From contig NC_083571.1 of the NCBI RefSeq assembly GCF_027579695.1, positions 36,689,943 through 36,753,942 of the forward strand: a DNA stretch of 64,000 bases. The letters are read 5' to 3'. Below are positions 8,905-10,426 of the stretch, in pieces (the first letter of the stretch is position 1; every line of letters starts with the position of its first letter). The notes under the pieces were generated by a model. The model saw only the letters and a list, made by a program, of their open reading frames with translations. It was not told the DNA's origin and did not search any database. This DNA comes from Neoarius graeffei. Lineage: Eukaryota > Chordata > Actinopteri > Siluriformes > Ariidae. The translations under genes and the position numbers were made by a program.

Positions 8905-10426
8905 TCACAGCTTCTGTAAACCCCCTTGTGGATGTTCTTGTTTTGCATCTTTATCTTTCTCCTTAGCTTTCTTTTTTTTGAACAGATTCTTGAGCTTTAA
9001 GGTTTTCTTGCCTTTGCCTCGACTATAGGATTCTGCTGGCGAGAGATTTCCAGATGGAGTAGAACTGCTGCCAGCACCATCACTGCTCACAAGACTTTGG
9101 GAGGAGGCAGACATTGAGGATAGCGAGGCAGGATGGCTGAGATCTCCAGGACTGGTCATATTCAGAGTGTTCTGATAAGACTTCTCTAAAATACCATCAT
9201 ACACTAGATGACTAAGGGGGTCTGAGGTTGGAGTCCAGAGCATTAGGGAGTTGATTGTAAGGTCAGGTTGATTGAAATGACCTGGGTCTGGAACTACAAA
9301 CTCATCTCTGGATATCTTTGGCCTAACAGTCTCCACAGGCATGTCTGACATATCTCTCTGGATTATATCTCTGGGTGTGTCCAAAGTATTGTCTGGCCTG
9401 ACATCCCGGATCAGTCTTTGTCTCTCTGTGACAACATCACGCTCATCTCTTGAGAGCTTCATGGATACAGCATTGTCCCTTCTCTCTCTTAAAGACATTC
9501 CTTGCTTATTTTCCATTGACGCATCCAAATCATCATGTGCCTTTTTCCTAAAACTGCTATCTATTGAAACACCTCTACTCAGCTTTCCCTTGTCCATGGA
9601 CAGACCTAGTTCATCTCTGGGCACCTTTCCGTAAAATCGTTCTTTGGGCAACTCTTTGCTATCTCTTACCATTACTCTTTGTCCATCCACTGAGACTGAG
9701 TCATCATGCTCATCTCTCAAAGGGCCTGTGAAAGTAGAGGCTAAAGGTTTGTCCTTTAACAGGGTATGTCCCTTTTGAGTTTCCTCTCTAAGCATTAATC
9801 TTGGAGCAGTGTCCATATCTACATCAAAATCTTGACCTGTATCTCCACTTTGGATATCTGTCACATATTCATCTTTTGGTGTCATTTTTGACAGGCCCTC
9901 TCCTGAGGGATCATTCCTTTCTTTAGACACCTTTCGTTGCAGACTGCCCACATTCACCTCAGTATCATCCATGTATCTTATTCCAAGGTAAGGTTCCATG
10001 GGGGAATCTAATTTCTCCCTGGTGGACAGTCTAATAGAAGAATAAGTAGAATCTATTGGTAAACTTCTTGGAATCTTCTTGAAATCAACAGGACCCTCAG
10101 GTTCTTTTATACACACAGGACTGACCAAAGCCACCTCAGGTTCCTCTCTGGATATCTTTCTGGCTTGGGTTTCAACTCGAAGTTCTTCATATGAAACTTT
10201 TCTAGAATCACTCCTTAGAGGAACCCCAAGTTCCTCTCGTGATATCTTGCGCACGGGACTGTTCTCATGTCCATCAAGTGGAATCTTACTTGTGACACTA
10301 TCAGAGAAAAGCTCCAGCTTATCACGATATAGTTTTCGAGGTGAAGTATCCAATCCAGGGCTGGTGTATTTTATTCCAACAGTGGGCCCAGTGGGATCAG
10401 ACTCGGAGGCTGTCTCTAGACACTCT
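8905..10426 (-). CDS. stim2: stim2 last coding exon: repeat-expanded cytosolic tail
   Basis: 506 codons in one open frame. It starts [17 protein letters not shown], as in the human tail. A region of about 17 degenerate repeats around K-[IVL]-S-R-[DE]-E follows, then the conserved [10 protein letters not shown] and a basic tail ([20 protein letters not shown]). Human STIM2 has one such motif (SPRKISRDEV). The basic run is followed by about 20 further residues rather than ending the protein. Frame continuity over 1.5 kb supports real coding. Confidence 0.93.

Follow-up and report, generated by a model that had tools for sequence, protein, structure and literature searches.

STIM proteins control when calcium enters cells. 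Does one fish member of this family carry, in its cytosolic tail, a tandem series of short repeats, and if so, where does the series come from and what would it do? This is the question raised by the window, the 64,000-nucleotide stretch of fish DNA analyzed here, in which the initial annotation noticed a stim2 tail expanded by about 17 degenerate KISRDE-type repeats. Our analysis revealed that the gene is a stim2a orthologue and that the array is a lineage-specific amplification of one tail element.

RESULTS

The stim2a gene of the window

The window holds an intact stim2a gene on the minus strand, with 12 coding exons from about 23010 to 8905 and a span of 14 kb (Table 1). Splice sites and the reading frame served to place the exons, which agree with the Pangasius protein in tblastn; the eleven exons without exon 1, when joined, encode 1012 aa. 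The product contains a STIM-type EF-hand domain (PF25578, E 9.7e-30), a SAM domain (PF07647 and PF00536, both above cut-offs) and the Orai-activating region, SOAR (PF16533, E 5.8e-43), and among PDB structures it is matched best by 2l5y, a STIM2 EF-SAM chain. A lysine-rich C-terminus is encoded near the end of the last exon, and several of its K and F columns are invariant or nearly so among 42 aligned sequences. The uninterrupted frame of 1.5 kb from which the initial annotation had argued for selection is present: the coding part of the last exon is 1522 nt long and uninterrupted between 10426 and the stop codon, at 8905.

Table 1. Coordinates of the stim2a exons, landmark and repeat units in the window
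Feature	Positions	Strand
Exon 1, signal peptide region; approximate ends, from tblastn with the Pangasius protein	22903..23010	-
Exon, EF-hand; start taken from the AG acceptor	22442..22572	-
Exon, end of the EF-hand domain match	18654..18768	-
Exon, SAM domain	18448..18559	-
Exon, SAM domain	18147..18262	-
Exon, transmembrane segment (by inspection) and start of coiled coil 1	16472..16649	-
Exon, coiled coil 1	14779..14956	-
Exon, start of SOAR	12302..12463	-
Exon, middle of SOAR	12000..12100	-
Exon, end of the SOAR region	11474..11715	-
Exon carrying the SPDPD / EEEGE landmark that precedes the array	10649..10832	-
Last coding exon: repeat array, GILEKS landmark and lysine-rich C-terminus	8905..10426	-
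Repeat array, 355 aa; degenerate units of 16 residues in tandem, about 17-21 of them recognisable	9283..10347	-
Unit 1; position 7 is Y in 31/32 otophysan and 49/63 other tails	10300..10347	-
Unit; position 7 is S in 29/32 otophysan and 51/63 other tails	10213..10260	-
Unit	10165..10212	-
Unit; position 7 is S in 32/32 otophysan and 42/63 other tails	10123..10170	-
Unit	9994..10041	-
Unit	9898..9945	-
Unit	9763..9810	-
Unit	9691..9738	-
Unit	9592..9639	-
Unit	9511..9558	-
Unit	9424..9471	-
Unit	9331..9378	-
Last unit	9283..9330	-
DGILEK landmark, downstream of the array	9181..9198	-

Unit and copy number of the array

The array lies inside the last exon and is composed of units of about 16 residues (48 bp) with the consensus SxSRKISRDELEASMD, or, column by column, S-P/S-S-R-K-I-S-R-D-E-L-E-A-S-M-D; the KISRDE-type motifs quoted in the initial annotation are found there. 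Copies of the core RK[ILMVT]x[RK][DE] are spaced 16, 30-32, 46-48 and 61-64 residues apart in non-otophysan tails, which indicates a unit of about 16 residues.

A strict regular expression recovers only 5 copies in the window, and profiles were used instead. At threshold 4, a 16-aa profile derived from 24 otophysan tails other than those of catfish identifies 17 units, while 300 shuffles of the window yield a mean of 0.59 and a maximum of 4; with the same profile, looser thresholds give 19-21 units (21 for threshold 1), and the stricter threshold 6 gives 13. Most starts of the 21 loose-threshold units are 13-17 residues apart, with three larger gaps of 24-29. A profile built from 64 non-otophysan tails identifies 13 units at threshold 4, against a mean of 0.66 and no more than 4 in 300 shuffles. 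The figure of about 17 repeats is therefore borne out, within a range of 13-21. The 13 best units span 355 residues, and it is this array length that corresponds to the roughly 360 residues once placed between the flanking landmarks: the distance from DPDL to DGILEK is 440 residues in the window, and the corresponding values are 113 (baboon), 111 (gar) and, for stim2b, 136 (zebrafish) and 132 (Silurus).

At the DNA level the units are strongly degenerate. Tandem Repeats Finder reports no tandem repeat within the array, and the DNA of the 13 units, which were picked by protein similarity, is 41.5% identical on average, versus 26.9% for random in-frame segments. The tail matches no Pfam family at E up to 1 and no PDB sequence; by these searches, the array is thus not a described domain.

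Distribution among vertebrates

The tail search provided a sample of 121 proteins, namely 120 listed of 128 matches and the window. At threshold 4, 115 of the 121 are long-tail proteins with 9-21 units (window included), and the remaining 6 are short gene models with 3-5 units, five from Sinocyclocheilus and one from guppy. The landmark expression was passed by 96 of the 121 tails; the 25 without a landmark match, which were scored separately, comprise 19 with 10-21 units and the six short models. All but one of the 96 entered the 95-tail alignment, Lepidogalaxias being excluded by the length limit. Bagarius (P0007) has 11 units and P0100 has 14. When scored by the non-otophysan-trained profile, the otophysans and milkfish have 9-15 units (milkfish 19, one other 17), and the other teleosts 14-21 with 9 in Lepidogalaxias, the origin of the profile favouring these teleosts. 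The low number in Lepidogalaxias may be a contraction. The distance between the landmarks varies little in otophysans (385-442 residues in 32 tails).

Outside this set, the element is essentially single. Among 120 listed of 421 matches, whose named sources are tetrapods, the core motif by the strict expression occurs once in 75, is absent from 45 and occurs twice in none. A single profile match is seen in gar, sturgeons, coelacanth, tarpon, bonefish, conger, arowana and elephantfish, and in every stim2b shown. Bowfin and lungfish each have a clear match and a marginal one, reedfish has two weak matches (6.0 and 4.8) and Heterodontus one degenerate match; the STIM2 of Callorhinchus (elephant shark) has no profile match. 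The profile is less clear-cut in tetrapods. At threshold 4, the 120 listed tetrapod-type proteins have one match in 21 cases, two in 88, three in 7 and none in 4, and 87 further proteins, from a search confined to proteins of at most 735 aa, have one match in 69, two in 14, three in 1 and none in 3. At threshold 8, two matches are still found in 36 and 4 proteins of the sets of 120 and 87, respectively, and three in one. The extra threshold-8 match is, in nearly all of these proteins, an unrelated acidic stretch such as ALYRNEEEEEAI. The statement that tetrapods have about one unit therefore rests on the core motif count.

As a separate observation, P0121 and 36 others of the 120 listed proteins, nearly all mammalian, have a second threshold-8 match, mostly at SSCPALYRNEEEEEAI. 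This is a basic-then-acidic stretch upstream of RKISRDE, either a chance occurrence or a second charge block.

The array is not restricted to catfish, nor is it general. The tetrapod, gar and stim2b proteins resemble Stim2a in the EF-hand, the SAM domain, SOAR, the PDPD/EEE and GILEK landmarks, the lysine-rich end and an RKISRDE element at the same place, but have about one such element instead of about 20, a landmark gap of 111-136 residues (four examples) instead of 440, and a lower charge density. In contrast, teleost Stim2a proteins (zebrafish P0028 and relatives) represent the same gene with the same array, and their tails align over the full length. Motif number is hence far from equal among vertebrate STIM2 proteins, with 9-21 units in the stim2a array against one in each stim2b shown and about one elsewhere. 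The idea that the fish tail expands a single ancestral motif, proposed from the one motif of human STIM2, is supported by the outgroups and by stim2b.

Clade and age of the array

A maximum-likelihood tree of the folded region was calculated from 51 hand-picked rows. The 19 long-tailed rows, including the window, form one clade (support 100/100), with catfish, characins, carps, milkfish, denticle herring, smelt, cod and perch-like fish as members. On the opposite side (97/95) are 14 short-tailed stim2b rows together with six elopomorph and osteoglossomorph rows, the STIM2 of tarpon, bonefish, conger, Aldrovandia, arowana and elephantfish. Some proteins within the long-tailed clade are called stim2a in their sources (zebrafish P0028, carp P0018), and the folded part of the window protein is most similar to that of Pangasius (94-95% identity). 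No elopomorph or osteoglossomorph stim2a occurs among the 120 listed of 128 tail matches, the second search having covered only proteins of at most 735 aa.

The 95-tail alignment contains 23 unit columns present in at least 10 tails, and 15 of the 23 are filled in at least 5 tails of both otophysans and other teleosts. With at least 15 unit positions common to both groups, the array predates the split between otophysans and other clupeocephalans. When eight species are compared pairwise, orthologous units outscore non-orthologous units of the other species in each of the 28 pairs (30.5 and 6.4, respectively, for the window and Serrasalmus), with the reservation that the columns come from a similarity-based alignment, which favours orthology. 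Similarity within a species does not uniformly fall below that between orthologous units: milkfish units score 16.2 among themselves versus 16.1 against their tilapia counterparts and 9.7 against those of cod, and pikeperch units 10.2 among themselves versus 9.9 with carp. Because the unit columns are common and orthologous units are more alike, the array must have been largely built before the split and for the most part not homogenised afterwards, its units having diverged individually. The flanks of the array look alike by eye on both sides in stim2a and in gar or stim2b, and the array thus occupies the place of their single element.

The tail is not the only part of the protein to differ. 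A post-SOAR stretch, SWVVMPRxSxPPYPIAGGVDDLDEDTPPI, is nearly identical in baboon, gar and two stim2b proteins and is altered in stim2a (window 11474 to about 11580, minus strand). Together with the long stim2a branch in the tree (0.23), this suggests that Stim2a has changed beyond the array.

Conservation and charge pattern

Within the array, the six core positions have a mean identity of 0.567 in 15 otophysan tails, versus 0.476 for the rest, a modest contrast that is reached by none of 354 circular shifts. The selection proposed for the tail is thus seen as constraint. On the larger scale, the tail is 81% identical to that of Pangasius and the folded part 94%; in view of this much faster evolution, part of the tail may be a passive spacer.

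The conserved property is a charge pattern: two basic residues, a hydrophobic one, any residue, a basic one and two acidic ones. Charge periodicity of 14-18 residues is found in 94 of 95 tails (31/32 otophysan and 63/63 other; reached by at most 5 of 100 shuffles), and in the window, where the best period is 14.75, it lies above all 300 shuffles. Position 9 is acidic at the unit columns of the window with a mean frequency of 0.91 in otophysans and 0.86 in the others. The charged fraction is 0.38 in the array, versus 0.23-0.28 in the same stretch of four single-unit STIM2 proteins, and the net charge is near zero. The array is therefore a near-neutral polyampholyte.

Position 7 behaves differently, in that its residue is specific to the unit. 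With units numbered by their offset from the PDPDL landmark, it is Y at unit 58 (31/32 otophysans, 49/63 others), S at unit 87 (29/32 and 51/63) and at unit 117 (32/32 and 42/63), and F or Y at unit 192 (19/32 and 57/63).

Serine at position 7

Several copies had been read as R-K-[IV]-S, a kinase consensus, from which multi-site phosphorylation of the tail was proposed. Part of this reading stands. RK[ILMVT]S occurs four times in the last-exon protein of the window, where shuffles average 0.1, but most copies lack it. Across tails, R[RK]x[ST] occurs 4.4 times per tail in otophysans and 4.3 in the others, compared with 1.1 and 1.0 in shuffles. This roughly fourfold excess makes tuning by a PKA-type kinase plausible at some units. 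Of the 23 unit columns, 7 have a majority serine at position 7 in otophysans and 6 in the others, which may give six or seven candidate sites per lineage, and only two of these columns are common to both groups; a phospho-acceptor is accordingly not conserved in most units. The mean frequency of S or T at position 7 of the window's unit columns is 0.45 in otophysans and 0.30 in the others. Judged from these alignments, a phosphosite in every copy is not supported, and with the majority serine in only two common columns, a phospho-scaffold would explain the array in part at most. At the other units this position is occupied by a fixed residue (Y, F, L or Q), so that charge, and not a phospho-acceptor, is the property common to the copies. 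A literature search for STIM2 phosphosites returned nothing usable.

Predicted structure and transcripts

AlphaFold2, run with one 42-sequence alignment, returned a mean pLDDT of 45.1 and no residue at 70 or above among 506. An ordered solenoid of units is not predicted, and the array is probably disordered, with which the low model confidence is consistent.

Five array proteins of 1004-1060 aa (P0024, P0067, P0069, P0085 and P0105), with 10-20 units at threshold 8, are encoded without introns on contigs of 3.8-4.6 kb. Since such contigs are too short for an unspliced 14-kb gene, we infer that the five proteins represent spliced transcripts, and, as these carry the array, the region is not generally spliced out. 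The splicing-out that the initial annotation had named as evidence against the array is thus not what these presumed transcripts indicate. An artefact, in which the array is spliced out or belongs to a wrong gene model, might be suspected from the six shorter Sinocyclocheilus and guppy models mentioned above and from a Seriola model in which the first part of the array is missing. Most of the Sinocyclocheilus models, however, show an apparent intron read-through after the SOAR exon, and the array frame is open and alignable in 95 tails; taken with the five presumed transcripts, this leaves an artefact scarcely credible. The array region may still be alternatively spliced in some fish.

DISCUSSION

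The duplication and divergence of STIM2 in fish, giving the a and b copies, are known (PMC1904252; PMC7291033). The word 'repeat' is absent from the main text of the 2007 paper on STIM evolution (PMC1904252), and in the mostly open-access Stim2a literature covered here we found no earlier report of the repeat array. A parallel is found in the zinc finger of Piccolo, where an internal element of a conserved protein was likewise amplified selectively in teleosts (PMC3484663), although the elements there are zinc-finger domains and that of Stim2a is a short unfolded motif.

We tentatively favour, as the most parsimonious view, to which we assign a probability of roughly 0.45, that the array is a disordered periodic polyampholyte acting as a flexible, multivalent tether or scaffold between the Orai-activating region and the lysine-rich tail. 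The array is placed between SOAR and the membrane-binding lysine-rich segment, and in this position it would lengthen the reach of Stim2a across the gap between the endoplasmic reticulum and the plasma membrane. Through its repeated basic-then-acidic blocks it could engage neighbouring Stim2a tails, or a partner, in numerous weak electrostatic contacts, and such contacts would keep Stim2a clustered at contact sites. Phosphorylation of a few units by a PKA- or CaMKII-type kinase, for which there are four RKxS sites here, might tune these contacts. The K-rich domain of STIM2 has been reported to bind PI(4,5)P2, with dimerization being sufficient (PMC3814058). With only 9 units in Lepidogalaxias, the full number is not strictly needed.

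A nearly passive spacer would be another explanation: an array that arose by replication slippage, of which only the length and solubility matter and whose repeat signature is a fading relic. The degeneracy of the units, the failure of Tandem Repeats Finder to see a repeat in the DNA, the faster evolution of the tail than of the folded domains and the stable landmark distance of otophysans are all as such a spacer would have them. It does not account for core columns conserved above the rest of the array beyond any circular shift, for unit-specific residues that are in part kept across groups, or for a charge periodicity that survives in nearly every tail, and we consider it unlikely, if the most serious of the other explanations to be weighed against a tether. 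Somewhat less likely still is that the copies are primarily R-K-x-S kinase sites that jointly switch the tail. The excess of R[RK]x[ST] over shuffles in both groups extends to the last-exon protein of the window (4 versus 1.1, p 0.024), the columns with a majority serine could provide the sites, and a review describes strong binding of STIM2 to the PKA catalytic subunit (PMC7786003). Nevertheless, S or T is present at position 7 in only 7 of the 13 units of the window, this position is far less constant than the acidic position 9, and majority serine is common to the two groups at two columns only. The looser basophilic patterns show no significant enrichment in the window (p 0.21 for [RK][RK]x[ST] and p 0.12 for Rxx[ST]), CK2-type sites are not enriched there, and the excess of RKxS stems in part from the motif itself.

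Another possibility would be a long STIM of the muscle type, the array acting like the 106-residue putative actin-binding insert of STIM1L in cytoskeletal pre-clustering at muscle contact sites. STIM1L has been described as forming pre-localised clusters with Orai1 in myotubes (PMC8468011). The stim2a transcript of zebrafish was reported to be highly enriched in skeletal muscle, and the same study found no STIM1L-like sequence in zebrafish in Ensembl 94 (PMC6471419); these two points make a STIM1L-like muscle role plausible enough to test. On the other hand, stim2a is also expressed in zebrafish brain (PMC6471419), and its loss affects neuronal calcium and behaviour (PMC7503814), and we regard this role as very doubtful. 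The likeness of the two proteins lies in a lengthened cytosolic tail and in muscle expression; STIM1L gains its 106 residues in STIM1 by alternative splicing (PMC8468011), whereas the stretch of Stim2a is about 350 residues long, repetitive and encoded in the last exon. A more speculative and improbable extension of the tether would make Stim2a a neofunctionalised sensor, in which a periodic charge-block polyampholyte drives self-association of the tails at contacts of the endoplasmic reticulum with the plasma membrane before store depletion, as an independent, non-spliced fish counterpart of STIM1L. If this were true, unit number and charge period would be tunable parameters of Stim2a self-association.

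Whichever function applies, one fish gene copy has amplified an element about twentyfold and kept the resulting array throughout the clupeocephalan radiation. The range from 9 to 21 units across fish, many of which also have a sister gene with a single unit, amounts to a natural experiment on the STIM tail, and zebrafish Stim2a, for which knockouts exist, is a testable case of a function gained by a disordered repeat.

Other features of the window

Several further repeats were observed around the gene. A 79-bp minisatellite (14001-14461, 5.8 copies, 96% matches) lies in a stim2a intron. Another stretch of stim2a intron (19136-20120, minus strand) has open or broken frames resembling, by eye, a Tc1-type transposase. 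Upstream of stim2a, the open or broken frames between 26150 and 33865 look by eye reverse-transcriptase- and gag-like. Farther along, 55628-56284 and 62969-63607 are direct copies 7.3 kb apart (300 nt identical, a second 300 nt at 97%), each with the same small tandem arrays, and look like two retroelement ends or a duplication. Nested within this outer pair is a second direct pair, 57691-58116 and 60184-60610, with 92-97% identity and about 2.49 kb apart.
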